DNA from: Mogibacterium sp.
GTDB lineage: Bacteria; Bacillota; Clostridia; Peptostreptococcales; Anaerovoracaceae
NCBI GenBank assembly: GCA_017432075.1
Contig: JAFRJV010000109.1
Span: 1 to 38,994, forward strand
Direction: 5' to 3'
DNA length: 38,994 bases
The notes under the pieces: model-generated
What the model was told of the DNA's origin: nothing
The model's database searches: none
The model's input: the letters and a program-made list of their open reading frames with translations, nothing else
Shown: positions 9,547-38,139 of the stretch, piece by piece
Numbering within the stretch: the stretch's first letter is position 1
Layout of the letters: each line of letters opens with the position of its first letter
Translations under genes and position numbers: made by a program

Positions 9547-9589
9547 ACTCTGTCCTTTTTCCGTCGCAAACTGTAAACCCTTAACTTTA

Positions 9590-9619: not shown

Positions 9620-9651
9620 TAAGAATCGGAGGCATCCTGACGGATGCCTCC
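9618..9651 (-). terminator. Terminator of the orphan PrdA-N gene
   Basis: A perfect 10-bp stem, GGAGGCATCC (9628-9637 with 9642-9651), loop of 4. On the minus strand it is followed by GATTCTTATTG, a modest U-rich tail. Confidence 0.7.
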
Positions 9652-9687
9652 AACGTCTGTTTACAGATTCAATAGGATATTTCCCGC

Positions 9688-10095: not shown

Positions 10096-10245
10096 ATCAT
10101 TTCCTCCGTTTTCTTTCAAGCAAATACCGGGATACAGACACATACCGCCTAAAATATCATTGTAGTTTCAGGCATTTGTCTAAACAAATAGACGCTTTCA
10201 ATATTGCAGGATATTGCGATAACCCGTATCAATAGACATGAGGTG

Positions 10246-10287
10246 AAAGTTTATAAACAGCCTGTTCAGTGAAGCTGAACAGGCTGT
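10246..10287 (-). terminator. Terminator of the dnaE-phosphorylase operon
   Basis: A perfect 13-bp stem, ACAGCCTGTTCAG (10257-10269 with 10275-10287), loop of 5, just after the phosphorylase stop. The minus-strand tail TTATAAACTTTC is only moderately U-rich. Confidence 0.75.
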
Positions 10288-10300
10288 CGGAGCATATTAA

Positions 10301-11050: not shown

Positions 11051-11055
11051 GAGGA

Positions 11056-19394: not shown

Positions 19395-19441
19395 CTTCGG
19401 AATAGTCCGATGTCCTATTCGTTTTTCTCTGTACGTCAGTA

Positions 19442-25373: not shown

Positions 25374-25449
25374 GCGCGCGTAGCTCAGTGGATAGAGTGG
25401 CTGACTACGAATCAGTAGGTCGCGGGTTCGAATCCCTCCGCGCGCACCA
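25374..25449 (+). tRNA. tRNA-Arg(ACG)
   Basis: 76 bases with encoded CCA (25447-25449). Acceptor arms GCGCGCG/CGCGCGC pair fully. The D-arm is TAGCTCAGTGGATAGAG. The anticodon loop is CTACGAA with anticodon ACG at 25407-25409. The T-loop is TTCGAAT, with one C-U mismatch in its stem. The wobble A is probably edited to inosine, as for tRNA-Arg(ACG) in other bacteria. Confidence 0.97.
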
Positions 25450-25492
25450 TAAGAGCCTTGGAATCACACGATTCTAAGGCTCTTATTCTTTT
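25450..25492 (+). terminator. Terminator of the tRNA-Arg transcript
   Basis: A 16-bp stem with one internal mismatch, starting TAAGAGCCTT right after the CCA (25450-25465 with 25470-25485), then TTCTTTTCC. The following 25493-25594 holds only an AAAACTATAGTTTT palindrome (25506-25519) and no gene. Confidence 0.9.
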
Positions 25493-25594
25493 CCTGATTA
25501 GGCGAAAAACTATAGTTTTATCACTTTTTTATCACTATTAATTTGGATTTGATGATACGTAGCTGGGTTCATATCAAAATAGTTGTGGTTCTGT

Positions 25595-26509
25595 TCATAG
25601 ACTATCAGCCGCATTAAAAGCCTTTTTGTTCATATTATGTATCACTACACCTGTCAATATCAGTATTGCTCCAATAATACTGTTTATTCTGAACGGCTCA
25701 GCGAGTACGACAGTTCCCAGAACTGCCGTAGTAAGCGGATTAAGTGCTGTCAGAACACCTGCTGTTTCTGAAGATATAGTTCTCTGTGCCACCGGCTGCA
25801 TGGCGAATCCAAAACTCGAACAAATAACAGCCAGCATCAGAAGCAAGCCCCATTCAGCCGGAGTCTTGGGAAGATGCGGGCTTTCCGCCGCGACCGATCC
25901 GATCATTCCAAAAAGACCCATGAAGCCCACATACAGGATCCCAACCACGAATGCATCACATTTTTTTGACTCTCTGTCTGTCACTATTATCGCTCCGGTA
26001 TACAACAGTGCGGCGATCATGCACAGTATTTCTCCGATGCCTATCCTGCCGCTCATATCACCCATAGCAATTGATCCAACACCTGCAAGGCAAAGGATCG
26101 CGCTCACGATCGTGATCCTGCCTGGCCTTCTCCAAAGCAATACTGCTTCAAACAAAGGAACCAGCACTACTGCAGAATTCTCGATGAAAGACGCAGTTGA
26201 TGTCGTTGTGTGCTTCAGACCGTTCAGTTCCAGAGTCATTATCATGAAATACATCAGTCCAAGCAAAGCCCCTGCCCTCAGATTCCGATGATCGTCTTTG
26301 ACAGCTGTGATGACTCTGCGGCCGAATAAAGCAAACAAGATAAGGAACGCAGTCAGAGATCTGACTCCCAGAAGATTAAGCGGCTCCATCGTCTGCAAAA
26401 GCATTTTTGAGAAAATGAACGACGACCCTCTGGCGACAGCCACCGCTGCCATCAGAAGTATCGCCGCTCGCATTGTTAATTTCTTTTTCTGACTGTTCCC
26501 CTCAGTCAT
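25595..26509 (-). CDS. EamA/DMT superfamily transporter
   Basis: 304 residues with about ten hydrophobic helices in two repeated halves. Each half is a typical EamA module: an RGSSFIFSKMLLQTMEPLNLLGVRSL start and, in the second, ALNPLTTAVLGTVVLAEPFRINSIIGAILILTG. Such proteins export amino acids or metabolites. It is the last gene of the operon with the class I aminotransferase and the three RraA-like genes, 18 bases after the nearest of them, so it probably moves a substrate or product of that pathway. Confidence 0.9.
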   Translation of the reverse strand: MTEGNSQKKKLTMRAAILLMAAVAVARGSSFIFSKMLLQTMEPLNLLGVRSLTAFLILFALFGRRVITAVKDDHRNLRAGALLGLMYFMIMTLELNGLKHTTTSTASFIENSAVVLVPLFEAVLLWRRPGRITIVSAILCLAGVGSIAMGDMSGRIGIGEILCMIAALLYTGAIIVTDRESKKCDAFVVGILYVGFMGLFGMIGSVAAESPHLPKTPAEWGLLLMLAVICSSFGFAMQPVAQRTISSETAGVLTALNPLTTAVLGTVVLAEPFRINSIIGAILILTGVVIHNMNKKAFNAADSL

Positions 26510-26527
26510 GTATTTTCTCCGGATCGA

Positions 26528-27202
26528 TCAATCCTCAGGTGTCTGCAGCTTGTGATATCCGGTCTGCTGTCTCGCCTCTTTGAGAGTCACTCCCGCTTCG
26601 ATCTTAGCCATGATCTGCTGCTCGACAGCTTCGATCTCGAGAGCGACCTTGAGTACCTCCTCTGCCCTTTTGAATGGAACTACTACGACGCCGGTGTTAT
26701 CCGCACATATCAGATCTCCAGGACATACCTGCACGCCGGAGATGCTTACAGGCTCGTTGATGTGATCTACATAGACTCTGTCCTTGCCTGTAACCATGTA
26801 GATGCTCTTGCTGAAGATAGGATATTTGAGCTTACGGATAACATTGATGTCTCTGCACACGCCGTCTATTACTGTGCCGGCGATCCCGTGCTTTGTGGCA
26901 TAATAGCTCATTATGTCTCCCCAGACCGTGCAGTCAAGGCGGCCGTTATTATCGATAACGGCAACTTCGCCAGGCAGTATATCGTCTATGAAGTCTCCTA
27001 CGGTTCCCTTCACTTCCTCACCGCATGGTGCATAGTGTATGGTGAATGCCTGTCCGCAGATATAAGTATCAGGAACGACAGGGTGGATCCCCAGGCAGCC
27101 GCCTGTGATGCGCAGCTTGTCCATAGCGTCCGAGATGCTCGGTGTGTCAAGCTTGCTGAATGCTTCGATTATTTCTTTAGGTAATGTCAGTTCAGGTTTC
27201 AT
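26528..27202 (-). CDS. RraA-like protein, paralogue 1 (HMG/oxaloacetate aldolase fold)
   Basis: 224 residues. SISDAMDKLRITGG near the start, the core DNNGRLDCTVWGDIM (84-98) and the signature VIDGVCRDI with R117-D118 identify the RraA / 4-hydroxy-4-methyl-2-oxoglutarate aldolase fold. In enzyme members the R-D pair and nearby acids bind a divalent metal and pyruvate enolate. E. coli RraA has the same fold but binds RNase E; the metabolic setting here favours an aldolase or decarboxylase. It is one of three unlike paralogues in a row. The substrate is unknown. Confidence 0.88.
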   Translation of the reverse strand: MKPELTLPKEIIEAFSKLDTPSISDAMDKLRITGGCLGIHPVVPDTYICGQAFTIHYAPCGEEVKGTVGDFIDDILPGEVAVIDNNGRLDCTVWGDIMSYYATKHGIAGTVIDGVCRDINVIRKLKYPIFSKSIYMVTGKDRVYVDHINEPVSISGVQVCPGDLICADNTGVVVVPFKRAEEVLKVALEIEAVEQQIMAKIEAGVTLKEARQQTGYHKLQTPED

Positions 27203-27255
27203 AGCCTATTCCTTTCTATCTTCAGAGTCCGTTTCACTGAGAGTGTTTTTTTGAT

Positions 27256-27900
27256 CTATTTGTCTGAAAGCTTCTCTTCTACAAGCTTGTCAAATCCATA
27301 CACTTCCATAGTGCTCATTCCTGCAAGTAGTTTTTCCCGTACTTCTATTTCGTAGTCATACTTCTTCAGGGCTTTTGCGAAGATCTCGTCTTCATTCTCC
27401 TGTGGGATAACTACTACGCCGTCGCAGTCACCATAGATGATGTCTCCCGGTCTGACTGTCACTCCACCGCATACCACTGGTACATAAACTCTACCAAGGC
27501 TTTCCTTGACCGTGCCTCTCGGATTGAACGCCTTGACGAACACCGGGAGGCCAAGTTCCCTGATATCTTCGGAGTCGCGGCAGCTGCCGTCGATCACTAC
27601 TCCTGCAATACCCTTTACCTTACATGCCGTCGCCATCATGTCGCCGAAGTGTCCTGCTTCGGTGAATCCCTTGCAGTCAAACACAAGCACATCTCCGGCT
27701 TTAGCCATTTCCATACCCTGATGAAGCGCCAGATTATCTCCCGGGAAACACTCCACCGGCACAGCTCTGCCTATCATCTTAGACTTCGGATCTATAGGCT
27801 TGATCCTCGAATCCATGACTGAATTCCTGCCTGCTGAGTCTGCCACGTTTCCTGTAGGCAATTTCAGTAATTCTGCTCTTTTGTTTTCTGTAAGTACCAT
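27256..27900 (-). CDS. RraA-like protein, paralogue 2 (divergent)
   Basis: 214 residues with the same fold: GNVADSAGRNSVMDS, HFGDMMATACKVKGIAGVVIDGSCRDSEDI with the R-D pair, and VRPGDIIYGDCDGVVVIP at the C-terminal side. It differs from its neighbours in the central strand, where the NGRLD motif of the other two is replaced by CKGFTEAGH, so the substrate pocket is likely to be different. It sits 22 bases after paralogue 3 and 53 before paralogue 1. An aldolase or decarboxylase role, or a structural partner of the other two, would fit. Confidence 0.87.
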   Translation of the reverse strand: MVLTENKRAELLKLPTGNVADSAGRNSVMDSRIKPIDPKSKMIGRAVPVECFPGDNLALHQGMEMAKAGDVLVFDCKGFTEAGHFGDMMATACKVKGIAGVVIDGSCRDSEDIRELGLPVFVKAFNPRGTVKESLGRVYVPVVCGGVTVRPGDIIYGDCDGVVVIPQENEDEIFAKALKKYDYEIEVREKLLAGMSTMEVYGFDKLVEEKLSDK

Positions 27901-27922
27901 ATCTGTATCCTTCTTTCCGGAG

Positions 27923-28591
27923 TTACTTCTTCAGCATTTTTTCATAGTCGAATTTATCATCTGTACCAAGGATGTCACCCGTGGCGAGTATCTCTGCGAG
28001 CATCGCTTCTTCCTTGTCATAAAGTTCCTCAGCCTTGGTCAGTACTTCGTCCACATGCTCCCACGGAACTATGACTACTCCGCTCCTATCGCACATGACT
28101 ACATCACCCGGTCTCACCTGTACACCACCGAACGAGATCATCTCATTGGTACTCTGCTCCATCACTCTGCCTCGTGCAGTCGCAACCACACAGCCCCTTG
28201 CATATACAGGGAAATCTGCATCGATTATATCGTCGAGATCTCTGCAGCAGCCATCGATGACTACTCCTTTGACCTTGCGCATCTTTGCGCTGTTAGCGAG
28301 GATCCCGCCCCAGCAGGATGTATCGAGCCTGCCGCCATTATCTATAACAATGATGTCTCCCGGCTCGGAAGCTACTATGGCATTCATGCCCAGATGATGC
28401 TTGTTTTTAGTCTCGCCTGCAGCACACATCTTCATGGTGACTGCTCTTCCTACCATACGGCCCCAGCGCTCCATCATGGGACGGATGCCATAGGTCGCTC
28501 CGTGTATCCCGTAAAAGTCGCAGGCATCGCTCACATTTGTAGTCGACAGTTTCTCGAATCTCGTTCTATACTTTTCGTCAAATATGCTCAT
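27923..28591 (-). CDS. RraA-like protein, paralogue 3
   Basis: 222 residues. TTNVSDACDFYGIHGA, DNGGRLDTSCWGGIL, VVIDGCCRDLDDI and VQVRPGDVVMCDRSGVVIVP give the RraA fold with the R-D pair kept. The WGD of paralogue 1 is WGG here, a form also common in the family. There are several cysteines (C24, CAAGE, CW, GCC) not shared with the others. It is the first of the three after the aminotransferase, 12 bases from its stop, so co-translation is likely. Confidence 0.88.
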   Translation of the reverse strand: MSIFDEKYRTRFEKLSTTNVSDACDFYGIHGATYGIRPMMERWGRMVGRAVTMKMCAAGETKNKHHLGMNAIVASEPGDIIVIDNGGRLDTSCWGGILANSAKMRKVKGVVIDGCCRDLDDIIDADFPVYARGCVVATARGRVMEQSTNEMISFGGVQVRPGDVVMCDRSGVVIVPWEHVDEVLTKAEELYDKEEAMLAEILATGDILGTDDKFDYEKMLKK

Positions 28592-28603
28592 CTCAGACCT
28601 CCT

Positions 28604-29800
28604 CTATTTCAGCTTTGCCAGCGCGGCTTCTATCTTATCCATTCCTTCTTTTATCGTCTCTACTGAGACCGGATATGCGAATCTTACGGTATTCGGCGCT
28701 TCGAATGCATCTCCAGGGACTACTGCAACACCTGCTTCCCTGAGCAGATACTGGCTGAAGCCCTGCGCATCGCCGATCTTAACATTTTCATCTCCGTCAG
28801 TATAGGTCTTATCGAACCAGCAGCTTACATCAGGCATGAAGTAGAACGCTCCGTCAGGCATGCCTGCCTTGATCCCGGTTACTGCATCAAGACGCTGCTT
28901 CATATAGTCGCGTCTCTTTTCGAACGCCTGCCGCATCTCCTCGACCTCGGTATCGCATTTCTCAAGAGCTGCTATGCCTGCCCACTGTACCATGGTCGTG
29001 GAATTGCTTGTCGAATGGCCCTGGAAGGATATCATACCCTTGATGATATCTGCAGGTCCTGCTGCATAGCCGAGCCTCCAGCCCGTCATGCAATACGCCT
29101 TGGCAAATCCATTAAGTGTAATCGTTCGATCATAAGCATCCTGTGAGATGGATGCGATGCTGACATGCTTCTTATCTCCATATATCAGCTTCTCATATAT
29201 CTCATCCGAAAGGATATACATCTCATGCTCTTTGGCGAGCTCGGCCAATGCCTTCAGTTCTTCTTCGTTGTACACCGCTCCGGTAGGATTGTTCGGCGTA
29301 TTGATGATGATCGCCTTTGTCCTGTTCGTTATGGCTGCCCTGATGTTATTGATCGACAGATGATAATCCTCAGCGCTCTCTACAACGATAGGGACTGCCT
29401 CAGCAAGTTTGATCATCTCTACATAACTGACCCAGCAAGGTGCCACCACTATCACTTCATCTCCTGGATCGCAGATCGTCATTACTGCATTGAATACCGC
29501 CTGTTTGCCTCCTGTCGAAACACAGATCTGTTCAGCGGTGTAATTAAGACCGTTGTCTTTCTTGAGTTTGGCTGCGATGGCTTCTCTGAGAGGCGTGATG
29601 CCTCCGACAGCCACATATCTTGTTTTGCCTGTATCAGTCGCTTCTTTAAGGGCTTCCCTTACAGCTGCCGGTGTATCGAAATCCGGTTCTCCGACATTGA
29701 ATGAAATAACATGCTCTCCTCTTGCCTTCATTTCCGATACCATGCCGTTAAGTGTGCTTGTTGCGGATGGTGTCATTCTTTTAATTCTCTGTGAAATCAT
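28604..29800 (-). CDS. Class I/II aminotransferase (aspartate aminotransferase-like)
   Basis: 398 residues, fold type I. Residues: FNVGEPDFDTP (34-44), NTPNNPTGAVY (168-177), the PLP-binding DE-IYEKLIYG region (about 199-208) and the Schiff-base K234 in LNGFAKAYCMTGWRLGYAAG, with R242 after it. The Iγ-type layout fits aspartate/prephenate- or branched-substrate aminotransferases; the acceptor is not readable. It is the first gene of the operon leading into the three RraA-like genes, which suggests it turns an amino acid into a 2-oxo acid for cleavage. GGGAGA is the ribosome site. Confidence 0.92.
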   Translation of the reverse strand: MISQRIKRMTPSATSTLNGMVSEMKARGEHVISFNVGEPDFDTPAAVREALKEATDTGKTRYVAVGGITPLREAIAAKLKKDNGLNYTAEQICVSTGGKQAVFNAVMTICDPGDEVIVVAPCWVSYVEMIKLAEAVPIVVESAEDYHLSINNIRAAITNRTKAIIINTPNNPTGAVYNEEELKALAELAKEHEMYILSDEIYEKLIYGDKKHVSIASISQDAYDRTITLNGFAKAYCMTGWRLGYAAGPADIIKGMISFQGHSTSNSTTMVQWAGIAALEKCDTEVEEMRQAFEKRRDYMKQRLDAVTGIKAGMPDGAFYFMPDVSCWFDKTYTDGDENVKIGDAQGFSQYLLREAGVAVVPGDAFEAPNTVRFAYPVSVETIKEGMDKIEAALAKLK

Positions 29801-29855
29801 TGCTTGTCTCCCGTTTTTTACCTTATTAACTTGGCTGCACTATGTTGTGCTCACG

Positions 29856-29865
29856 TTGTCGACAA
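29856..29865. promoter_or_regulatory. Candidate GntR operator 1, upstream of the aminotransferase operon
   Basis: Perfect palindrome TTGTCGACAA, 56 bases before the aminotransferase ATG. The same ten bases occur before the regulator and before the transporter gene. I could not pick a convincing -35/-10 pair for this operon. Confidence 0.75.
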
Positions 29866-29875
29866 TTATTTTTTC

Positions 29876-29909
29876 CGGCTTCGGTTGTACCATTCCGAAG
29901 CCGTTTTTT
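29876..29909 (+). terminator. Plus-strand-only intrinsic terminator
   Basis: A 9-bp stem, CGGCTTCGG/CCGAAGCCG (29876-29884 with 29895-29903), followed by TTTTTTG on the plus strand. On the minus strand both sides are A-rich, so it cannot end gntR transcription. No plus-strand gene lies before it. Confidence 0.7.
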
Positions 29910-29946
29910 GACTTTGTTCAATTGTTACTTTGAATCATCCTAACAT

Positions 29947-30579
29947 TCAGAATGAACGCCTGGAAACCTCTATTGCCGTATCTCCTACAGAAGACAGATG
30001 CTGTCTGAGTGCCTCCTCTGCCTTGGCTTCATCGCCATCAATTATCGCATCTATTATGGCACTATGTTCCCTCAGTGACTTTTCACTGCGGCTCACGCCT
30101 TTAGCGCTTATCCTTCTGACACGCTCGCACTGCGAATTTAGATTTCCTGCAAAACTCCGGATCCTTGGACTGCTTGCGCTATCCACTATCATTCCATGCA
30201 GTTTTCTGTCCGCAGTGTGGAAGAGCTGCCAATCATTCTTTTCATATGCTTCCTCAAAATCCTTCTTTATATATTGGAGCTCTGTTCTGTCCAGTCTGCT
30301 GAATCCCTTTCTGAGGCACCAGCACTCTATCATCGATCTTAGTTCATATATCTCATCGACATCTGAAGGCGACACCTGTGAGACAAAACTCCCTCTGTCC
30401 GGATAACTGATTATGAGGCCTTCTCTCTCAAGCTCTCTCATTGCCTCCCTCAGAGGAGTCCTCGATATCCCCAGATCCTTTGCTACAGCTATCTCTGAAA
30501 TAGGAGTGCCAGGCTTAAGCTCATCAGCAAGAATCGCCTCTTTTAAGTAATGATATGCAACATCCTTTTTACTACTCAT
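29947..30579 (-). CDS. GntR family regulator, FadR/FCD subfamily
   Basis: 210 residues. The N-terminal winged helix contains the classic ISEIAVAKDLGISRTPLREAMRELEREGLI. The FCD ligand domain keeps the metal-binding acid and histidines (FHTADRKLHGMI, SLREHSAIID, ALRQHLSS), so the effector is probably a small carboxylate. The start at 30579 lies 6 bases after GGAGG; an adjacent ATG at 30582 is possible. It sits between two divergent gene sets and has TTGTCGACAA in its own leader, so it is likely to regulate itself and both operons. Confidence 0.93.
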   Translation of the reverse strand: MSSKKDVAYHYLKEAILADELKPGTPISEIAVAKDLGISRTPLREAMRELEREGLIISYPDRGSFVSQVSPSDVDEIYELRSMIECWCLRKGFSRLDRTELQYIKKDFEEAYEKNDWQLFHTADRKLHGMIVDSASSPRIRSFAGNLNSQCERVRRISAKGVSRSEKSLREHSAIIDAIIDGDEAKAEEALRQHLSSVGDTAIEVSRRSF

Positions 30580-30593
30580 CATCCGCCTCCACA

Positions 30594-30650
30594 TTGTCGA
30601 CAATTTGAATACATCTGTTATTATGATACTGTATTTTTTTCGTATGTCAA
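30594..30650 (-). promoter_or_regulatory. gntR promoter with candidate operator 2
   Basis: Minus strand -35 TTGACA (30650-30645), a 16-base spacer and -10 TATCAT (30628-30623), with +1 near 30616. The palindrome TTGTCGACAA (30603-30594) lies at about +13 to +22, a position suited to repression. Confidence 0.8.
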
Positions 30651-30737
30651 GTCATTTTTTCATTTTGATCTATTAATCGATGGCAATTTTATGATCAATG
30701 ATAAAAGAAAAAACATATTGTTTTTAGTTTTTGGGTA

Positions 30738-30791
30738 TTGCCTTTGAAAAAAACGTATAGTACAATCCAGTTGTTCGCAGATTGTCGACAA
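30738..30791 (+). promoter_or_regulatory. Transporter-operon promoter with candidate operator 3
   Basis: -35 TTGCCT (30738-30743), a 17-base spacer and -10 TACAAT (30761-30766), with +1 near 30773. TTGTCGACAA (30782-30791) lies at about +9 to +18, the same arrangement as at gntR. A small GCCTGC/GCAGGC stem follows in the leader. Confidence 0.8.
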
Positions 30792-30872
30792 CATGTGAAC
30801 AACTGCTATCCACTGAGGGCCTGCCCTGCAGGCAAGTACCACCTCACATAATAATAAGGAAAGGTGAAAAAA

Positions 30873-32267
30873 ATGAGCAACAATCAAAAGCAACACAAAG
30901 TCCAGTTTTATCTGGGTGATATCGGAGCAATAATCCCTTTTGTGGTTATGCTCGTCATACTTGTCGCACTTGTAATATCAGGCCATAAATCTGCACAGAA
31001 CTATTGGACAGCAGCATTTTCCGGAATCGTAGTTGCATATCTTCTCTGCAAAGACAAGCACGAATTCAATTCAATGATGTTCCGCTCACTTCAGGATAAG
31101 ATGTTTGCCCCACTGTTCCTGACATTTATCTTCTCAGGAATCTTTAGTAAATCACTAACCATTGGCGGTCTGGCCAAGGGAATCCTGTGGGCTGCTACAA
31201 AAATCGGTGTCGGTCCGGCATTCTTCCCTGCCGCAATGTTTATTATAGGATGTATTCTTTCCACCTCGATGGGAACATCCAGCGGTACTATTGTAGCAAT
31301 GGTCCCTATCTTTCTCCCTACTGCAGTTGCTCTAGGCTGTAATCCTGTTGTAACGATAGGTGCAATCGTAAGCGGAGCATATTTCGGAGATAATCTTGCT
31401 CCTATTTCTGACACAACGATCGCTTCAGCAGGTACACAGGGAATCTCTGTTGGTGAATGTGTGCGTACAAGACTTAAATACTCTATTTCAGCTGGATTAC
31501 TGACACTTATAGTCCTTGTATTCTTCGGCTTTACCAAACAGGTAGATCCTATGATCATCGAGTCAGTAGCGGAAACCAATCCTACCAGCCTGATTCTGAT
31601 CATTGCTCCTATCCTGCTCATCATACTTGTAGTAAAAGGAGTTGATCTTATTCCTGCACTGCTGATCGCTACAATCACATCAATAGTGCTCGGACTTGTC
31701 ACCGGTCTCATAACTCTTGAAAATGTTTATGATGTTGAAGGTATAGTTGCAACAGGTACAACATCGATGATCGGTATCATGATGCTTACCACGTTCACAT
31801 TCCTGCTCAATCGCTGTATAACCGAGTCTGGTGCAATGGACAACATGATAGGTAAACTCGCTGGACTTGCCAAAACACCTCGTTCTACGGAGCTGCTGCT
31901 TATTGCGATCTGCGCACTCATCGTAATTATGGTACCGTCCAACTCAACTGCTATCGTAGTAGCTGCACCGTTCGCTTACAGACTTATCAAAGCGCAGAAC
32001 ATGGAAAAGACACGCGGCTCAAATATTATGGATGGCATCTGTGTATCTGTCTCCGGACTTATCCCTTATGGAGCAGGTGTTCTGACAGCACACAGTCTGG
32101 CGATCTCCTGTGGAGTTATGCCTGAGACTTTCAGCCCTATTGATTTCATTCCATTCAACATATACAACATACTTCTGATCTGCGTGTTCATATTCGCAGG
32201 AATCACAGGCTGGGGTCGTAAGTTCACTGACCGCAGCAAAGATGATGATCAGATAGAAGCTGCATAG
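30873..32267 (+). CDS. NhaC-family Na+/H+ antiporter-like transporter
   Basis: 464 residues with about 11-12 hydrophobic helices. The family motifs are GCILSTSMGTSSGTIVAMVPIFLPTAVALG and SGAYFGDNLAPISDTTIASAG (the GDNxxPISDT signature), and near the end SGLIPYGAGVLTAH. NhaC-type carriers exchange Na+ and H+, and some members carry organic acids or amino acids coupled to ions. First in an operon with a PLP enzyme and an amidohydrolase, it may import their substrate. The start at 30873 follows AAGGAAAGG; a GTG at 30864 is in frame but lies in the ribosome site. Confidence 0.9.
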   Translation: MSNNQKQHKVQFYLGDIGAIIPFVVMLVILVALVISGHKSAQNYWTAAFSGIVVAYLLCKDKHEFNSMMFRSLQDKMFAPLFLTFIFSGIFSKSLTIGGLAKGILWAATKIGVGPAFFPAAMFIIGCILSTSMGTSSGTIVAMVPIFLPTAVALGCNPVVTIGAIVSGAYFGDNLAPISDTTIASAGTQGISVGECVRTRLKYSISAGLLTLIVLVFFGFTKQVDPMIIESVAETNPTSLILIIAPILLIILVVKGVDLIPALLIATITSIVLGLVTGLITLENVYDVEGIVATGTTSMIGIMMLTTFTFLLNRCITESGAMDNMIGKLAGLAKTPRSTELLLIAICALIVIMVPSNSTAIVVAAPFAYRLIKAQNMEKTRGSNIMDGICVSVSGLIPYGAGVLTAHSLAISCGVMPETFSPIDFIPFNIYNILLICVFIFAGITGWGRKFTDRSKDDDQIEAA

Positions 32268-32287
32268 CATTACACAATAGATTCTAT

Positions 32288-32324
32288 ATGGCGACTCGTC
32301 TATAACCTCCGGACGGGTCGCCAT
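32288..32324 (+). terminator. Hairpin between the transporter and the class V PLP gene
   Basis: A 13-bp stem with one G-T pair, ATGGCGACTCGTC (32288-32300) against 32312-32324, loop 11. It has no real T-run after it, so it is more likely a weak terminator, attenuator or processing site than a full stop. Confidence 0.55.
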
Positions 32325-32376
32325 GCAGGTATAATCGTTATTTAATATGTACATTTTCGAAGGAGCTACTTAAGAT

Positions 32377-33555
32377 ATGACAAATAAGGGATCAAGAGAT
32401 AAGTATGCAGATGAGCGTCGTTTCTTCCCTATTATGGAGGAGTGCATATTCCTGGATCACTGCACTGGGGGAATATACCCCACCTACTCACGGGATGCAA
32501 TGATCGATTATATCAAGAGAGGGTCTGAAACAGGTATGACCTTCGAGCAGTTTGCTGAATACTGGGTATACACAGACAGCGTTAGAAACGAAGTAGCTCA
32601 TCTGTTCCACTGCACAGGAAATGACATATGCTTTGGTTCAAGTTCAACGCAGCTTTTTAACATCTTTATAAATGGGTTGGATCTCCAGCCTGGAGATAAT
32701 GTAATAACCTCAAGTGCAAGCCACGAATCCGTTCCATTTATTCTTCTTAACCAAAGACAGAACGGAGTCGAGGTCAGGTTTGTTGATCCTATTGAAGGTG
32801 TTACGGATCCGGATCAGATTTTCAGTCTTGTGGATAGCAGGACTCGAGCAATATGTCTTAATCATGTTGAAAAGTTTAACGGATTCCGTCATGATCTGAA
32901 AATATACGGCGATTTCTGCAGAAGCCATGGTATTGCACTCGGTATAGATGCATCACATAGTGCAGGAGTGATGTATATTGATGTCAACGAGATGAATGTA
33001 GACTTTGTTACCTGCTCCGGATATAAATGGTTGATGTCTCCTCTGGGAATAGGCGCAGCATACATAAGTCCTGCTCTGCAGAAATCACTAAAGCTAGTTG
33101 ATACAGGCTGGTGCAGCGAGAAAGAACGCTGGAACAAGAATGTTTATGAGCCTAATACCAGAACCAATGCTTGCAGATTTGAATGCGGTGGTCTGAGCAT
33201 AATCGGCCTCATAGGTCTTGAATCAGCTGTTAAACACTATGCAAATCTTGGAAGCAGCGATGTTCAGGAATACGTTTTATCATTGTCCGATTATCTATAT
33301 CAACGTGTTAATTTGTATCTCAAGGAAATAACAGTCTATGGCGATATTCCTAGTAGCAACAGGTCAAATATAGTATTTCTCTCAATACCTGAGAACTATG
33401 GATTGAATGAAAAGTTCATGGAATCCAAAGGAATACGCGCTCACTGCTTTAACAAGGGAACCCTGCTGAGAATCGGCCTGCACTACATAAATAACAAACG
33501 TGACATTGACAGTCTTATTGCGTTTCTTTCAAGCGTTGAACAAAATAATATATAA
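32377..33555 (+). CDS. Class V aminotransferase-fold PLP enzyme
   Basis: 392 residues. Fold type I features: IFLDHCTGGIYP at the start, GSSSTQLFNIFING (phosphate loop), the PLP-ring D191 and H194 in GIDASHSAG, and K217 in CSGYKWLMSPLGIG. The family covers cysteine desulfurases, isopenicillin N epimerase-like proteins and kynureninase-like lyases; no desulfurase catalytic Cys loop is apparent. It could be a racemase/epimerase, lyase or aminotransferase. It lies between the transporter and the hydrolase on the plus strand. Ribosome site AAGGAG at 11 bases. It is noticeably A/T-richer than the prd genes. Confidence 0.86.
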   Translation: MTNKGSRDKYADERRFFPIMEECIFLDHCTGGIYPTYSRDAMIDYIKRGSETGMTFEQFAEYWVYTDSVRNEVAHLFHCTGNDICFGSSSTQLFNIFINGLDLQPGDNVITSSASHESVPFILLNQRQNGVEVRFVDPIEGVTDPDQIFSLVDSRTRAICLNHVEKFNGFRHDLKIYGDFCRSHGIALGIDASHSAGVMYIDVNEMNVDFVTCSGYKWLMSPLGIGAAYISPALQKSLKLVDTGWCSEKERWNKNVYEPNTRTNACRFECGGLSIIGLIGLESAVKHYANLGSSDVQEYVLSLSDYLYQRVNLYLKEITVYGDIPSSNRSNIVFLSIPENYGLNEKFMESKGIRAHCFNKGTLLRIGLHYINNKRDIDSLIAFLSSVEQNNI

Positions 33556-33610
33556 TTCCTTTTGTATATACATTAAATATGGCTGAAGGTCCATAGGAAA
33601 GGATTTAAAA

Positions 33611-34417
33611 ATGCCAAGAATAGCAGCAGTACAAATGAGCATGTCTGTGGATATGCACGAGAATTATGAAAAATCTCTGAAGTTTATAAAAGAGGCAGCA
33701 GAAGCAGGCTGTCAGATGGTATGCTTCCCAGAGGGACAGCTGACGCACTACCTGCCTCAGTTCCCGGGGCTTGATATCTCTGAATTCGGCATCCCTATTT
33801 ATCACGAATATGTTAAAGGACTTTGCCATGCATGCAGGGACTACAACATAATAGGAGGCTTCTCTATCACACTTAAAGAGAACAAGAATTATTATCCTGT
33901 AAGCATGATAGTTGATGAGCAGGGTGACATCCTGACCGTACAGAAAAAGCATCACATAGTGCGTGCGTATCACTTCTATGAGCAGGACTATTACACACCG
34001 GGAAATGATGGATTCAAAGTCGTTGATACATCCATAGGCCGGATCGGCACTATAGTATGCTTCGACCGCCATTTTCCGGAGAGCTGGCGCACACTTGCCC
34101 TAAAGGGAGCAGACTTCGTCTTCACTCCTGTTGCGAACGAAAAGGCTGAACCGTCTGATGTCTTCCAATGGGAGATACGGATCCCGGCTTTCCAGAACAG
34201 CTTTAACACGCTGATGGTCAACAGAGTTGGTCTCGAGGGCGAAATGGACTATTGTGGGGAGTCGGTATTCTCAGATGCGAGCGGCAATGTAGTCGCGCTT
34301 GGAGATGACCAGGAAGGACTTGTTATTGCAGATCTTGACTTTGATGTGGCTGTGAAGATTCGAAGTGAAAAGCAATATATGCCTCTCAGGCGCTCTGATG
34401 TATTTGAACTGGACTAG
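33611..34417 (+). CDS. Carbon-nitrogen hydrolase (nitrilase superfamily)
   Basis: 268 residues with the full Glu-Lys-Cys set: E41 in FPEGQLTHY, the lysine in QKKHHI (K112 or K113), and C150 in IVCFDRHFPESWR. Members hydrolyse amides, N-carbamoyl groups or nitriles. The size and motif wording fit an amidase or carbamoylase (omega-amidase or N-carbamoyl type) rather than a true nitrilase. It has AGGAAAGGA before the ATG, lies 55 bases after the PLP gene and is the last gene of the operon. In this setting it probably releases ammonia from the imported substrate or a pathway intermediate. Confidence 0.92.
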   Translation: MPRIAAVQMSMSVDMHENYEKSLKFIKEAAEAGCQMVCFPEGQLTHYLPQFPGLDISEFGIPIYHEYVKGLCHACRDYNIIGGFSITLKENKNYYPVSMIVDEQGDILTVQKKHHIVRAYHFYEQDYYTPGNDGFKVVDTSIGRIGTIVCFDRHFPESWRTLALKGADFVFTPVANEKAEPSDVFQWEIRIPAFQNSFNTLMVNRVGLEGEMDYCGESVFSDASGNVVALGDDQEGLVIADLDFDVAVKIRSEKQYMPLRRSDVFELD

Positions 34418-34474
34418 TTGAAATGCCAATATCGCACTAAACAAAGAACACAGTTTTTGATCACACATGGCACT

Positions 34475-34510
34475 ACCGGGGATATTGCCATCCCCGGTGT
34501 TGTTGTATAA
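34475..34510 (+). terminator. Terminator after the hydrolase operon
   Basis: A 9-bp perfect stem, ACCGGGGAT/ATCCCCGGT (34475-34483 with 34490-34498), then GTTGTTGTAT. The tail is weak in T but the position fits. Confidence 0.65.
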
Positions 34511-34529
34511 ATGCTATCCCGGTAGCAGA

Positions 34530-35600
34530 TCATCTTGCGCCTCTATCATTTCGGATATCTTTAACGGGATCGTACATCCTGATACCAGTCCTTTTGATAG
34601 CATACTGCATAAGTTTTTCAAGAGCATTGCCCCAGACTTCTGCCCAGGTCTCTATGCTTCTGCCGCTGAGGATTCTGCACATTTCTGTAATAATGGCGAC
34701 TGCTCTAACAAGAATGCTGTTATATTTTCTAGGATCGCTTTTACCGCCTGACTCTTTTATAGACTCAGCTGCAGGCTTCGAGATCAGTTCATGCTTTACT
34801 ATCATGAGGCTGTCCCTTGGTGCTCCCCTCCTGATCGCGATATCCACCTGATTGTTCCATTTTTTTCGGAGTGCGTTTGTCTCTCTGATCTCTTTTGCCT
34901 TCGGGTTGTTCTTGCCGATCTTTTTCGTAGCAAGATACGGGCTGTTTTTCGGGAACATCTGCAACTGTTGATCCTCTCTCAAGGGCTGATTGATCTTGTC
35001 CGTGAAGAATGCTTTCGCTTGCTCAGTGAATCTTTTCTGCTTGAATATCGGCTTCTTCTTGTCGAAAAGGTGCTGTTCATAAACCTCGCCTTTGGGAACC
35101 ATCGTGTATCCGGGCATCAGTTTTCCTTCGATCGTTGCTTCTTTTTTCGTCCTGAGATGTCTTCCATCCGGGTCGAAAAACATGTTGCGTGATGCGATCT
35201 TCTTCACCGGTTCGTCCAGTTTGTCACGCTCTGAGTAGATCAGATGGATGTGATAATTCGTCATATCATGGTTGTGATGGAGCGCTGCGACGCACTCAAC
35301 ACCGTACTCTTTCTTGAATGACTCAACGAAATATCTCAGCAGTTCATTCGGATCGATGCCTTCTTTGTAATAGACTTCCGGCAGAGCTATGATGAATTCT
35401 CTCGCCTCGATGCAGGTTCCGTCTGTGCCGGATCTGAAAAAGTCATCACGGTTCTCCTTAGCAAGCGCTCTCCAGTATTCTCTCGGCTGGGTCTCGTATG
35501 TCGCATAGAGATGTTCCTGCTTGGCCTCGTTGCTTATATAGCTGATCCTTCCCATTACGTTATGCAGTTTTTCATGTCTTATATAGCTTACTCGCTTCAT
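34530..35600 (-). CDS. Relaxase / mobilization protein (MobA/MobL-like)
   Basis: 356 residues. GRISYISNEAKQEHLYATYE at the N-terminus and the histidine triad motif HHNHDMTNYHIHLIYSERD (108-126) identify a HUH relaxase that nicks the transfer origin and stays on the DNA end. The C-terminal half is basic and helical and has no primase or helicase part, so it is a short mobilization type that would need a conjugation machine from elsewhere. The start follows AAAGGAGAAA. The 555-base gap upstream of it holds hairpins and repeats. Confidence 0.88.
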   Translation of the reverse strand: MKRVSYIRHEKLHNVMGRISYISNEAKQEHLYATYETQPREYWRALAKENRDDFFRSGTDGTCIEAREFIIALPEVYYKEGIDPNELLRYFVESFKKEYGVECVAALHHNHDMTNYHIHLIYSERDKLDEPVKKIASRNMFFDPDGRHLRTKKEATIEGKLMPGYTMVPKGEVYEQHLFDKKKPIFKQKRFTEQAKAFFTDKINQPLREDQQLQMFPKNSPYLATKKIGKNNPKAKEIRETNALRKKWNNQVDIAIRRGAPRDSLMIVKHELISKPAAESIKESGGKSDPRKYNSILVRAVAIITEMCRILSGRSIETWAEVWGNALEKLMQYAIKRTGIRMYDPVKDIRNDRGAR

Positions 35601-35706
35601 TTAGTTTCTCCTTTGTTGTTCATTTCTATTTCAAATACTGTTTCCTTTTTCATCGCTAACATCATTGGATCCAGGGATGATAGCAGTCGCGGCTGAGGAG
35701 CTTGTG

Positions 35707-35901
35707 GGTAACCGGACTCGCTGCAGGGCTGTGGAAAAGTGGGACGGTCAGCTCGCTGTCCTTGCACTTTTCCATGGTTCTGCTCCGGTTATCCATAAAT
35801 CCGCGGCCGTTTTTGCGCCGTTACTTGCAGACGGCGCCGCCCCTGCGAGGCGAAATACACAGAGTACGAACCGCAAGGTTTGTGCGATGGGTGTATTTCG
35901 C
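35707..35901. repeat. Cascade of hairpins upstream of the relaxase (candidate oriT or structured RNA)
   Basis: Outer stem GGTAACCGGA (35707-35716) against 35784-35794 (one mismatch) encloses an inner perfect 10-bp stem TGGAAAAGTG (35732-35741 with 35765-35774). Next come GCGCCG/CGGCGC (35815-35820 with 35832-35837) and an 11-bp perfect stem GCGAAATACAC (35850-35860 with 35891-35901), whose loop holds AACC-gcaa-GGTT. No open frame uses this stretch. An oriT is expected close to a relaxase gene. Confidence 0.6.
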
Positions 35902-35976
35902 TCTCAGTCGGCGAGGCCTCTTAAATAGATGGATTTTTGCTTACTTCCTGTACTGCCCGAAGAAGGAGTCACTGTT

Positions 35977-36069
35977 GCTCCTGTTCGTATGCTCCTATAT
36001 GGCTCCTCCTTACGTGCTCCTGTATGGCACCTGCTGCGTGCTCCTGCGTGTCATGACGTGTGTGCTCCT
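35977..36069. repeat. Six spaced GCTCCT repeats (iteron-like)
   Basis: GCTCCT starts at 35977, 35991, 36002, 36016, 36040 and 36064. Spacing falls into two sets of 24-25 bases. The best copies share TGCTCCTG. Further on, GCAAGATGG (36101-36109) is inverted at 36144-36152. The repeats lie directly downstream of the RepA-like ATPase gene, where replication or partition repeats would be plausible. Confidence 0.55.
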
Positions 36070-36155
36070 TCATGTCGTGATGTTCACTCCTGCCAAGGTA
36101 GCAAGATGGCAACATGGCAGCTTATATAAGTAACGCCGTCTTACCATCTTGCCAG

Positions 36156-37145
36156 CTACATCTGTTGCTCAGCGTCTTTGCAACACATGAACCATTTGTC
36201 GCCGATCCTCACGGATTCGATCCCGATGATCTTCATAGCATTGCGAAGTGTCTTCTCTGCGATCCCCTTCGCCTCTGCCTTTTCCAGAACATCTGAGCTC
36301 GCTATCATCTCTCCGTCCTCAGGTACCACTTCCTTGAGGAAATCGATAGCATCATAAGTCTTCTGTCCTTTGACCCCGGTCGGCACCAGAAGATCGTGTA
36401 CCGGTGTTTCATACTCTCCGATCCACTCGAAGCCCCTGTCCTTACTCAGACGGAAAGCGACCGGAGTGTGCTCATAAGTGAGCGATGGCTTCGTTGTTGC
36501 CAACACTCTCACGTCAGGATCTTCTCTTGATCTCGCGCAGAGTATCACGCTCCTTGCTGCAGCCATGAAGTCGATCGAGCCAAGCCCTCTGTAGTCAATG
36601 TTTGCTTTGCCATTCTTGTTCAGATGACCTATCAGGACCATTGCACATCTGTGACGCGCCCCTACATCGCCAAGACGCTTCATCTGAGGTCTGACCTCGT
36701 TCGCTCTGTGCATGTCTACCCTGGCTCCGAGGAATGCCTGAAACGGATCGAGCACAAAGAGCTTTGCTTGTGTATCTGCGATCGCCTTCTCTATCCTTTC
36801 ATCAGACATTGTGAGTGCTCTATCAGAATCGTCAATCGAAAAAACTCTTCTGCAGTCAGCGCCCGCTGCTATCAGACGCGGTTTTATCGTATCTGCAAGG
36901 CCGTCCTCCGCTGTCTGATAGATCACATTGACAGGTTCTCTTACCTGCGGGCTTCCCGGAGGTGAGAATAGGTCTCTGCCTGTTGTAAGTGCTGCGATGA
37001 TGTTGAGCATCGCCATAGTCTTTCCCTTTGCAGGGTCTCCGTGCAGGATCGTCAGCTTACCAAGAGGGATGAAGCCCTCCCAGAGCCATTCGACTTCTTC
37101 GGCTTCCACATCATTCATATTGATCAGTTTGTAGCTTTTATCCAT
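36156..37145 (-). CDS. RepA-like AAA ATPase (RecA-fold helicase type)
   Basis: 329 residues. Walker A is at 36-43 (GDPAKGKT), Walker B is KLFVLDPFQAF and the sensor-like segment is MVLIGHLNKNGKANIDYRGLGS. This is the AAA_25/RepA hexameric helicase family seen in plasmids and integrative elements. The C-terminal ~80 residues form a small winged-helix-like region (SSDVLEKAEAKGIAEKTLRNAMKIIG). It probably unwinds DNA for element replication. It lies 18 bases after the HTH gene with ribosome site GGAGGTGAG. Confidence 0.88.
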   Translation of the reverse strand: MDKSYKLINMNDVEAEEVEWLWEGFIPLGKLTILHGDPAKGKTMAMLNIIAALTTGRDLFSPPGSPQVREPVNVIYQTAEDGLADTIKPRLIAAGADCRRVFSIDDSDRALTMSDERIEKAIADTQAKLFVLDPFQAFLGARVDMHRANEVRPQMKRLGDVGARHRCAMVLIGHLNKNGKANIDYRGLGSIDFMAAARSVILCARSREDPDVRVLATTKPSLTYEHTPVAFRLSKDRGFEWIGEYETPVHDLLVPTGVKGQKTYDAIDFLKEVVPEDGEMIASSDVLEKAEAKGIAEKTLRNAMKIIGIESVRIGDKWFMCCKDAEQQM

Positions 37146-37163
37146 TCTGTCTCACCTCCTTCC

Positions 37164-37391
37164 TTAATTCCTTCTGCTGCACTTGATCTCCGCCGCCGGG
37201 ATCAAGCCATGTGTCGTGTCCATGAAGTACTGTTCGACTACATCGACATCTACCAGATACCTGTTGCCTGCCTTGGCGCTTGGAATGACTCCCTGAGTCA
37301 CCATTTCCCTCAGCAGATTCCTTGTGATCGCCGTCTCGGGATCTCTTGCTTTGAGTTCCTCGTAGGCCTTGTTAATAGTGCGTAAAGTCAT
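37164..37391 (-). CDS. Excisionase-like small HTH protein
   Basis: 75 residues. ITRNLLREMVTQGVIPSAKAGNRYLVDVDVVEQYF is the MerR-like winged HTH pattern of excisionase and recombination directionality factors (helix, wing with G-N/R-R-Y, helix). It could instead be a simple regulator. It starts the minus-strand operon with the RepA-like ATPase, with AGGAGGTAATC before the ATG. No integrase is seen to pair with it in this window. Confidence 0.75.
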   Translation of the reverse strand: MTLRTINKAYEELKARDPETAITRNLLREMVTQGVIPSAKAGNRYLVDVDVVEQYFMDTTHGLIPAAEIKCSRRN

Positions 37392-37445
37392 ATGATTACC
37401 TCCTTATCTCTTACGCAGTGAAAGCTGATAAGGCAGGCTATTTTG

Positions 37446-37538
37446 AAAACGAAAAAAGCCGGCCTACATGACCGGTTCTGATTGCACGACAAAACCTCGT
37501 ATTTGTTCTTCGTTAATCAGAATAAATCATGTAAGCCG
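37446..37538 (-). terminator. Long hairpin with U-run upstream of the excisionase-like gene
   Basis: 24-base arms at 37460-37483 and 37515-37538 are inverted copies with five mismatches (CGGC-TACATGA-TTCTGATT shared). On the minus strand the stem ends in CTTTTTTCGTTTTC. It would terminate a minus-strand transcript coming from 37.5-38.0 kb, or attenuate transcription into the excisionase-ATPase operon. Confidence 0.7.
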
Positions 37539-37589
37539 ACTACAATTTTTTGTAAACGGAAAAATCAATAAGGGTTATTTTACCTTATA

Positions 37590-37990
37590 CGTGTGCCGGG
37601 CTCCTTCCCGGAGCATTATCAGGCGGTCGCTAACGAGGCGACCTCACAGCCAGTTACGCACTCCCGAGGGATCTCCTCGGGCCGCCCCATGTATATATGT
37701 CAAGACGGGAGTATCATTGTCCCCTGGGATTGTCATCGCACATTGAAGTTGTCATCTTCCTTTTGGATACATAGTGTTATCGCTCGACCGTACTAGCGGT
37801 GTCATGGCGCACTGGTCCTGCATGCTCACGGTTTCCCGATGTCCCAGAGAAGGTTCCTGATAACGGTGGTATTCAATTTCATCTGTTGACTTGTTATTAT
37901 AGATACTCCCTGAAGGAAGTATTGCAGGATAACACAACCGCATGTATGTATCAAGCCTTGTCAAGACCTGTTACATACATGCAGGTCTGA
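37590..37990. other. Non-coding, hairpin-rich stretch of the mobile element
   Basis: The 748 bases between 37391 and 38140 have no convincing gene. Short frames there lack ribosome sites and protein-like composition. Three hairpins stand in a row: GCTCC/GGAGC (about 37610), GGTCGC/GCGACC (37625-37643) and CCCGAGG/CCTCGGG (37663-37681). At 37940-37982 an 11-bp repeat GCATGTATGTA is inverted, interlocked with AGACCTG/CAGGTCT (37964-37988). A minus-strand promoter-like pair TTGATA/TATCCT lies nearby at about 37953-37925. A structured RNA or an origin are the main options. Confidence 0.5.
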
Positions 37991-38056
37991 GCTGCCATTT
38001 ATCATTTGAAGGTATAAAGAAAGGTGATAAAAAGCAGCCTAAAATCGAACAAATGT

Positions 38057-38085
38057 TTGTATTTATTATATTAAAGTGCTATACT
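38057..38085 (+). promoter_or_regulatory. Promoter of the KilA-N gene
   Basis: -35 TTGTAT (38057-38062), a 17-base spacer and -10 TATACT (38080-38085). The -35 overlaps a small ACAAA/TTTGT inverted repeat. Confidence 0.6.
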
Positions 38086-38139
38086 CATGTCAACACAAGT
38101 TCGAACAGGTTTTCTTATAATGAATGAGAGGTCTCTAAA

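Follow-up and report, generated by a model that had tools for sequence, protein, structure and literature searches.

Gene content of the locus

A 38,994-base contig (C21) from a Mogibacterium sp. genome assembly (2.75 Mb, 160 contigs), the whole of which is called here the window, carries at positions 25595-34417 a locus that raises the question of what reaction sequence would bring together an aminotransferase, an amidase, a carrier, an exporter and three proteins of the RraA fold. An earlier note on this DNA had taken it for an unrecognised catabolic locus in which an amide- or carbamoyl-bearing amino acid is imported and finally cleaved to pyruvate. The analysis described here goes beyond that note in two respects: judged from sequence, a mobilizable element is predicted to carry the locus as its cargo, and the RraA genes are predicted to be part of a widely conserved module. 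The open reading frame (ORF) list and family profiles recovered all nine genes with the families, content and order that had been named, in two opposed sets with one GntR/FCD regulator. The locus comprises the following features (PLP, pyridoxal phosphate).

25595-26509, minus strand: predicted EamA/DMT exporter; its last codons are unlike those of a 97%-identical copy
26528-27202, minus strand: RraA_A; D-X20-R-D motif, no E/D at +3
27256-27900, minus strand: RraA_B, LigK-like; 188 bits against NF006731 (cut-off 179), nearest solved structure 3NOJ
27923-28591, minus strand: RraA_C; G-X20-R-D-X2-D motif
28604-29800, minus strand: class I aminotransferase of the aspartate-aminotransferase type
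29856-29865: copy of the candidate operator TTGTCGACAA that precedes the aminotransferase by 56 bases
29947 to about 30579, minus strand: GntR/FCD regulator; probable ATG start near 30579, the ORF opening at TTG 30603
30594-30603: candidate operator TTGTCGACAA, upstream of the regulator and just downstream of a promoter-like TTGACA/TATCAT (30650-30623)
30782-30791: copy of the candidate operator TTGTCGACAA that precedes the NhaC ATG by 82 bases and lies just downstream of a weak promoter-like site (30738-30766)
30864 (GTG)-32267, plus strand: NhaC/DcuC-type carrier; ATG 30873 is the likely start
32377-33555, plus strand: class V PLP enzyme
33611-34417, plus strand: carbon-nitrogen hydrolase, i.e. 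nitrilase-superfamily amidase; E41, K112/K113 and C150 conserved

The RraA module

Relatives of the RraA genes (loci are designated L, genomes G and contigs C) were collected by a genome-contig scan that retained the best 80 of at least 379 RraA_C relatives; since only these were kept, the scan leans towards C-like genes. In a maximum-likelihood tree of 134 RraA sequences, three supported clades formed around the window genes: A (32 rows, support 100/99), C (37 rows, 99/90) and B (16 rows, 99/92), the deeper branching being weak. By this phylogeny, the window RraA proteins are assigned to three old clades.

Outside the window, an A gene was found on the same strand within 2.5 kb of 26 of the 36 C-clade genes, and both A and B lay near C in 12. 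Ten C genes had no A within that distance, eight of which lack full flanks; among C genes with full flanks (23 in 22 loci, L051 having two), 21 had A within 2.5 kb. In the 45 scan loci without a C-clade gene, a second RraA of any kind was nearby in five cases, and in four of these it was A beside a B-like gene. A strict dependence between A and C was rejected, as L054 and L064 have C without A despite full flanks and five loci have A without C. Loci with both genes belong to Bacillota, Spirochaetota, Nitrospirota, Chloroflexota, Acidobacteriota and Actinomycetota and, with plasmids, to Pseudomonadota. The occurrence of A and C side by side across these seven phyla and in several pathway types argues that the two genes work together.

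Residues were compared in 83 sequences (A 32, B 14, C 37; the divergent B rows of L045 and L058 were left out). The catalytic Arg and Asp (equivalent to R123 and D124) were present in all 83, and E199 in 82. The first Asp of D-X20-R-D was found in 28 of 32 A and seven of 14 B sequences (Glu in six), and the C clade has Gly there in 32 of 37 (Glu in five); E/D at +3 after R-D occurs in 31 of 37 C, all 14 B and four of 32 A sequences. Mazurkewich and co-workers (2014) reportedly described two alternative metal motifs, D-X20-R-D or RD-X2-E/D. The idea that A and C have lost catalytic residues in complementary fashion was rejected, as the patterns match these two alternatives. The comparison was made with the 4-hydroxy-4-methyl-2-oxoglutarate (HMG)/4-carboxy-4-hydroxy-2-oxoadipate (CHA) aldolase family, and each of the three window proteins carries one of the metal motifs. 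Passages of PMC5065237 state that most HMG/CHA aldolase homologues have one of the two.

RraA_B matched the HMG/CHA aldolase 3NOJ best among solved structures (3e-51); it exceeds the NF006731 cut-off and stays under that of TIGR02798 (LigK; 165 bits, cut-off 304.5). RraA_A and RraA_C were far under both cut-offs, their best structure match being the uncharacterised 3K4I. Retention of the metal and enolate residues of HMG/CHA aldolase is in line with the lyase reading of the RraA-fold proteins in the earlier note, and a role of these genes as RNase E regulators was rejected on gene context and residues. A suggestion that we consider possible rather than probable is that RraA_A and RraA_C form a single heteromeric enzyme or act as two closely coupled ones. 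Immediately before or beside a LigK-type aldolase, they would perform a step for which the RraA fold is not yet known, such as the hydration, tautomerisation or decarboxylation of a 4-hydroxy-2-oxo or 2-oxo-enoic acid; A/C would then be a plug-in unit for ring-cleavage products, AcnX-type acids and, here on a mobile element, an amino acid.

Other contexts of the A/C pair

The A/C pair was also found in clusters without the amino-acid genes of the window. Its contexts include genes for AcnX, LeuC/D-like, isopropylmalate dehydrogenase (IPMDH)-like, dihydroorotate dehydrogenase (DHOD)-like and UbiD/UbiX proteins in varying sets. In L027, L046, L047 and L057, a recurring cluster holds the large and small subunits of AcnX, LeuC/LeuD-like and IPMDH-like genes and the RraA module, some with DHOD-like or UbiD/UbiX genes. 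A Pfam scan of L043 placed RraA_C and RraA_A by AA_synth (PF06684), amidohydrolase, isochorismatase and D-2-hydroxyacid dehydrogenase genes; L044 and L045 were alike by eye, and this further candidate catabolic cluster of all three also has lactate-racemase-N and serine-dehydratase-alpha-like genes. In L059 (Dehalococcoidia), the scan detected LigB-type dioxygenases and an amidohydrolase with A/C, and L060 was alike by eye. PIG-L-family genes lie near RraA_C in L036 (6127-6873) and L052 (8678-9412); the GalB-type 4-oxalomesaconate hydratases belong to the PIG-L fold.

Matches were also present in 72 plasmid records, of which four regions were examined. In pNL1, pLA1 and pCB82_1, ring-hydroxylating or extradiol dioxygenase, amidohydrolase and RidA genes accompany the C/A pair. 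On Aminobacter pANY103a, the pair is found with a full LigK (357 bits, cut-off 179, and 346 bits, cut-off 304.5) and with genes for a LigB-type dioxygenase, an amidohydrolase and 4-hydroxybenzoate 3-monooxygenase. The motif split of all four pairs is that of the window pair. The RraA_A-type genes of pNL1 (L197, 8665-9333) and pLA1 (L198, 8646-9302) are labelled ‘diguanylate cyclase’ in their records, their sequence and motif being those of RraA. In the Aminobacter cluster, LigK stands next to the pair, which suggests for C and A a function in addition to the LigK reaction.

Enzymes that could make a 2-oxo acid accompany A/C in several contexts, namely the aminotransferase, the IPMDH-like protein, D-2-hydroxyacid dehydrogenase, or LigB-type dioxygenase with amidohydrolase. 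Several of these contexts would form a 2-oxo acid that could be finished by pyruvate-enolate chemistry of the RraA type.

A shared operator

The palindrome TTGTCGACAA occurs three times in the whole window (29856, 30594 and 30782), each time inside the locus: one copy precedes the aminotransferase, one the regulator and one the NhaC carrier. The mean after shuffling was 0.04 copies, and none of 100 shuffles gave three. Promoter-like hexamers, which barely exceed chance in this stretch (four found, 2.5 expected), lie just upstream of two of the three copies, a place for repressor action.

Recurrence was assessed in nine hand-chosen loci, the window included, whose RraA genes have a 33-41% identical GntR/FCD relative no more than about 4 kb away, using hand-picked intergenic stretches and, as the null, 1000 rounds of approximate dinucleotide shuffling. 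These loci held 13 TTGTNNACAA sites, against a mean of 0.17 and a maximum of 2 after shuffling. At least one such site was found in seven of the nine, and a perfect palindrome, TTGTCGACAA or TTGTATACAA, in six, including the window; L041 has TTGTACACAA instead, and L028 and L039 had no TTGTNNACAA site in the intergenic stretches scanned. The identical TTGTCGACAA stands twice in L048, before the regulator and before RraA_A; L027 has TTGTCGACAA before its regulator and TTGTATACAA before AcnX, and L034 and L037 carry two copies of TTGTATACAA each. Not counted were L043 and L044 (regulators of 33-35% identity, about 9 kb away), with none of these palindromic sites beside the distant regulators, and L038, L046, L052 and L056 (24-28%), of which L056 has TTGTATACAA directly before its regulator.

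Both the three copies and their recurrence beside homologous regulators support the proposal that two gene sets stand under one regulator and one operator. With a shared palindrome that recurs beside homologues, the GntR/FCD locus resembles an autoregulated catabolic operon. We infer that repression would act via TTGTCGACAA, from which the GntR/FCD protein would silence both gene sets and its own gene.

Linkage of the genes in relatives

Co-occurrence was followed in a family sample of 296 genomes, the own genome included, and a class sample of 321 genomes. RraA_C (E≤1e-45) was found in seven of the 296 genomes. The aminotransferase (E≤1e-110) was present in six, twice in RraA sets; the other four matches (L193-L196) had no RraA neighbour. 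The amidase was rejected as a pathway marker: 25 of the 296 genomes carry a homologue (E≤1e-55), five of them RraA-linked (G000, G246, G275, G286, G109), and of the remaining 20, the 11 neighbourhoods inspected, some of them cut by contig ends, showed no RraA neighbour. Among the matches listed, the nearest named homologues of RraA_C come from Mogibacterium-labelled goat and sheep gut metagenome genomes and uncultured Clostridiales.

Partial sets recur elsewhere. In L022/L032, of the same genus, the order is amidase, aminotransferase, RraA_C, RraA_B, RraA_A and DMT, all in one direction; L042 and L049 have RraA_C, B and A followed by NhaC (32-33% identity) and the aminotransferase; and L048 has GntR, RraA_A, C, B and the amidase. 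In the best-80 scan, eight of 35 C-clade loci (L030-L033, L035, L042, L048, L049) have a same-strand aminotransferase and/or amidase nearby, with the amidase in six, the aminotransferase in four and NhaC in two; five of the eight belong to the Mogibacterium-like group. AcnX lies near nine further C-clade loci (L034, L037, L038, L041, L046, L047, L055-L057). A 25% aminotransferase match in L051 was left out of this count, as it is on the opposite strand. In that locus (Murdochiella, 3690-11352), two C-type and one A-type RraA genes are divergent from this aminotransferase-like gene, a PLP-enzyme-like gene (by eye) and another RraA gene; it is possibly a second amino-acid version of the RraA module.

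The co-occurrence that the earlier note proposed to search for exists in part; the class V PLP enzyme was not seen linked to such sets elsewhere. Matches to it (E≤1e-40) were found in eight of the 296 genomes, the best foreign identity being 38%; the class sample gave no foreign match at E≤1e-75, and pattern scans of viral contigs gave no relative of it or of RraA_C. Its best matches are of the cysteine-desulfurase type (profile 2.6e-39, structure sequence 2.7e-22). Given these matches and no close homologue or linkage in the genomes sampled, its assignment as an (isopenicillin-N or amino acid) epimerase was unsupported, as was the suggested epimerisation step.

The aminotransferase and the amidase

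The aminotransferase aligns with the Thermus aspartate aminotransferase, including the GGKQ lysine, which presumably binds the distal carboxylate in the latter. Since it is of the aspartate-aminotransferase type and has this lysine, an acidic substrate is plausible. In the amidase, E41, K112/K113 and C150, which we take to be the Glu-Lys-Cys triad of the nitrilase superfamily, are invariant in all five aligned RraA-linked homologues. N-carbamoylputrescine amidase was its best NCBIfam match (140 bits, cut-off 410), ahead of deaminated-glutathione amidase (81 bits), neither being near its cut-off. Structure matches included fly CG3027 (presumably a beta-ureidopropionase), archaeal nitrilases, and N-carbamoylputrescine and N-carbamoyl-D-amino-acid hydrolases, with a best E of 1e-24. 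A Nit2-type enzyme was not the best match, 2w1v scoring E=4e-11 and the N-carbamoyl hydrolases higher.

A proposed pathway and its alternatives

Our proposal builds on what the DNA itself provides, i.e. the gene families, the operator and its recurrence, the boundaries of the element, and the A/C/B module with its catalytic residues. It is an inducible pathway leading from an imported acidic or amide-bearing amino acid through a 2-oxo acid to pyruvate, which we hold tentatively, its chance of being right as a whole falling a little short of even. The amino acid would be taken up by the NhaC-type carrier; its side-chain amide would be hydrolysed by the nitrilase-superfamily amidase, before or after transamination; and the aspartate-aminotransferase-type enzyme would yield the 2-oxo acid (a 4-hydroxy-2-oxo acid). 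The RraA set would then carry out metal-dependent pyruvate-enolate chemistry, with RraA_B as a LigK/HMG-type aldolase releasing pyruvate, and the A/C pair may act with it, whether as a second lyase, as a hydratase or tautomerase, or by decarboxylating oxaloacetate. Surplus product might leave through the EamA protein. The lyase part is reasonable; the order of steps and the C-C bond cleaved are those that we infer. According to passages of PMC5065237, aldol cleavage of HMG gives two pyruvates and that of CHA pyruvate and oxaloacetate. Of the catabolic amino-acid reading that had been put forward, the operator, the RraA residues and the aspartate-aminotransferase type speak for the general part; epimerisation and the specific substrate were not supported. 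The substrate class named, 4-substituted glutamine or glutamate derivatives, found no support and is a guess that we think unlikely to be correct.

Several observations weigh against this scheme. The aminotransferase and the amidase are no fixed pair, because L021, L023 and L031 have amidase sets without the aminotransferase and the L049 set has no amidase beside it; the L042 contig ends inside the aminotransferase. Side-chain amide hydrolysis is unsettled because N-carbamoylputrescine amidase outscores deaminated-glutathione amidase. A hydratase, which would be required for 4-methylene substrates, is not encoded in the locus; the scheme leaves the class V PLP enzyme without a role; and the set includes an exporter of uncertain direction. 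Further, an A-clade gene occurs without C in L058, L066, L068, L069 and L074 (in L068, A alone), and L034, L037, L038 and L041 have AcnX and no IPMDH-like gene within the stretch. In line with the earlier note, full-text literature searches gave no described pathway with this exact gene set among the matches listed, and these likewise held no such cluster assigned in print.

The likeliest alternative, which we nonetheless regard as unlikely, is an ordinary dissimilation of asparagine or aspartate, in which the aminotransferase would form oxaloacetate (or 2-oxosuccinamate, deamidated by the amidase as an omega-amidase) and the RraA proteins would be oxaloacetate decarboxylases. The aminotransferase is indeed nearest to aspartate aminotransferases, passages of PMC5065237 report that HMG/CHA aldolase also decarboxylates oxaloacetate, and passages of PMC6302742 describe transamination of glutamine or asparagine coupled to nitrilase-superfamily omega-amidases. 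However, three distinct RraA clades kept together would be superfluous for this purpose, asparaginase alone is normally enough for asparagine use, and a larger 4-hydroxy-2-oxo acid would fit better with an A/C pair found in aromatic and AcnX clusters.

The ranking of the amidase matches would also suit an N-carbamoyl-amino-acid hydrolase in a locus that degrades a ureido or hydantoin-derived amino acid, since both the best NCBIfam match and the structure matches include enzymes of this type. We consider this improbable: the matches are distant, and there is no hydantoinase or dihydropyrimidinase among the nine genes.

Still less probable is a biosynthetic cassette, in which RraA-catalysed aldol condensation of pyruvate with an oxo acid and transamination would give a 4-hydroxy-4-substituted glutamate for export by EamA. 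Aldolases of this class are reversible, an RraA-type aldolase has reportedly been coupled to an aminotransferase for monatin, and the EamA exporter lies within the operon in relatives; on the other hand, the carrier and the amidase are co-regulated with the set, and A/C is repeatedly found next to genes with an aromatic-degradation annotation.

The locus as cargo of a mobilizable element

The proposed catabolic locus coincides with a segment of about 25600-34474; on sequence comparison, this segment is the predicted cargo of an integrative mobilizable element that has a tRNA-Arg gene as its insertion site. The element features are as follows.

25374-25449, plus strand: tRNA-Arg(acg), with the 37-base attL core at its 3' end (25413-25449)
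25450-25600: left end of the mobilizable element, where a terminator-like hairpin and TTATCAC repeats are visible by eye
34474-38857: mobilizable-element backbone; 75-77% DNA identity to three relatives
34530-35600, minus strand: MobA/MobL relaxase; 88% in G682, G275 and G691
36156-37145, minus strand: AAA_25 ATPase of the element
37164-37391, minus strand: small HTH protein of the element; HTH_17 20.1 bits, below the cut-off of 27
38140-38874, plus strand: KilA-N protein of the element, followed by a Phage_integrase-family gene in three relatives

Right of the locus lie the relaxase, AAA_25, small HTH and KilA-N genes. Three loci of the same genus (L134-L136) share this backbone; there, tRNA-Lys is followed by a cargo gene, then by the relaxase, AAA, HTH, KilA-N and Phage_integrase-family genes, and at the far end by a second tRNA 3' end. 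The catabolic cluster occupies the slot that lies between the tRNA-proximal end and the relaxase in these relatives, and the left segment (25450-25600) is similar to the tRNA-proximal ends of L140 (to 25563) and L134.

The stretch from prdF to the tRNA was matched in 37 of 40 genomes of the genus, and seven such sites were examined. In six (L137, L138, L139, L141, L142, L143), homology to the window breaks off at 25451-25491. The seventh, L140, is homologous up to 25563 and has a second tRNA-end copy about 2.7 kb on, hence another insert is present at that site. This insert (L140 6058-8730, genome G682), lying between two copies of the tRNA-Arg 3' end, is different from that of the window, so that tRNA-Arg is a repeated insertion target. 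The backbone of the element was not found at any of these seven tRNA-Arg sites.

One integrase of this kind occurs in the own genome, on contig C103 (25692-26834; 67% to that of L134). It is adjoined by a second tRNA-end copy, with a DUF711-like gene and an M20 peptidase further on, both of which also lie downstream of tRNA-Arg in L139 and L142. The attL core and attR on C103 are identical over 37 bases. When joined, the two outer flanks align with L139 and L142 to either side of the junction, near which L139 has about 1 kb extra and L142 lacks about 1.75 kb. As C103 and the window are unjoined in the assembly, the integrase is assigned to the window's element by these matches and would belong to it. 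The arrangement has the expected hallmarks of an integrative mobilizable element: direct repeats at a tRNA 3' end, a relaxase and an integrase that would lie between them, and relatives whose site lacks the element. The open frame at 25507-25600 beside the tRNA was rejected as an integrase tail, as the TTATCAC repeats lie past the integrase stop in L134 and the integrase is on C103. A second MobA/MobL relaxase (69%), with an AAA gene, is present on the own contig C1 (L145, 10000-20713) and probably belongs to another mobile element, given the serine-recombinase gene nearby.

The genome is metagenome-assembled (83% complete, 160 contigs, 4.9% contamination) and leaves the window and C103 unjoined, and a different assembly (L026) holds the RraA half, at 97% identity, among other neighbours; yet an artefactual joining of cluster and relaxase is very improbable, given the slot shared with three relatives, the 37 identical att bases and joined flanks that follow L139 and L142 across the junction.

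The cargo is probably composed of two halves of different origin, joined under one common operator, because of the limits of two matches and a contrast in G+C content at third codon positions (GC3). The copy in L026 (G232 contig 81) corresponds to window 25621-28229, its end at 25621 falling within the last EamA codons, at the cargo edge, and its neighbour genes resemble the same-genus chromosome L021; homology of L022 with the window ends at 29812, 12 bases before the aminotransferase. GC3 is 0.49-0.58 in the DMT-to-aminotransferase half, 0.445 in the regulator, 0.41 in NhaC, 0.40 in the class V enzyme and 0.50 in the amidase. The L026 genome is of another genus and 7% contaminated; its contig is probably a contaminant from a near relative of the window's species.

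Elsewhere in the window, a set of proline-reductase-type genes extends over 9.7-25.2 kb, including a short PrdA-like ORF (9688-10143) and, at 19421-20167 on the minus strand, a PrdB-like proline reductase subunit (family by eye) with an in-frame TGA (LLTAG-TGA-GTCHR) that is a likely selenocysteine site.

Comparison with known systems

RraA-fold proteins are common, mostly without an assigned reaction and often misnamed (‘diguanylate cyclase’, ‘dimethylmenaquinone methyltransferase’ and ‘cellulase’ among the matches). The three-clade module makes a specific test possible, with A, C, and A plus C. If the proposal is correct, the amino-acid version would be an anaerobic way of converting an amino acid to pyruvate that has not been described before, carried on a mobilizable element in gut bacteria.

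The closest element relatives, L134-L136, are tRNA-integrated with the same gene order, a 75-77% identical backbone and the same cargo slot; they differ in having a tRNA-Lys target and one cargo gene of 366 aa, in contrast to tRNA-Arg and about 9 kb of catabolic cargo in the window. The glutaminase II couple (glutamine transaminase/omega-amidase) similarly combines an aminotransferase with a nitrilase-superfamily amidase, the two genes being adjacent in L022/L032 and L035. The window differs from it in an amidase profile nearer to N-carbamoyl hydrolases, in the RraA genes of the set and in lying outside a methionine-salvage operon.

The HMG/CHA aldolases of protocatechuate and gallate 4,5-cleavage (LigK, ProA, GalC) have the RraA fold and the D-X20-R-D residues in common with the window proteins. 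Those systems have one paralogue, whereas the window co-encodes three, with an aminotransferase beside them and no aromatic genes. The AcnX clusters with LeuCD/IPMDH-like and UbiD genes (L027, L046, L047, L057) contain the same RraA clades A/C(/B), in L027 together with a GntR/FCD relative and the same operator; there the 2-oxo acid would arise via hydro-lyases and a dehydrogenase, in the window via the aminotransferase. We know of no assigned function for clusters of AcnX, LeuCD/IPMDH-like, UbiD and RraA genes. Finally, the ring-cleavage clusters on the Novosphingobium, Bradyrhizobium and Aminobacter plasmids share adjacent RraA_C and RraA_A genes with the same motif pair, joined by LigK in Aminobacter; they are annotated for aromatic catabolism, and their C and A proteins are 37-47% identical to those of the window.

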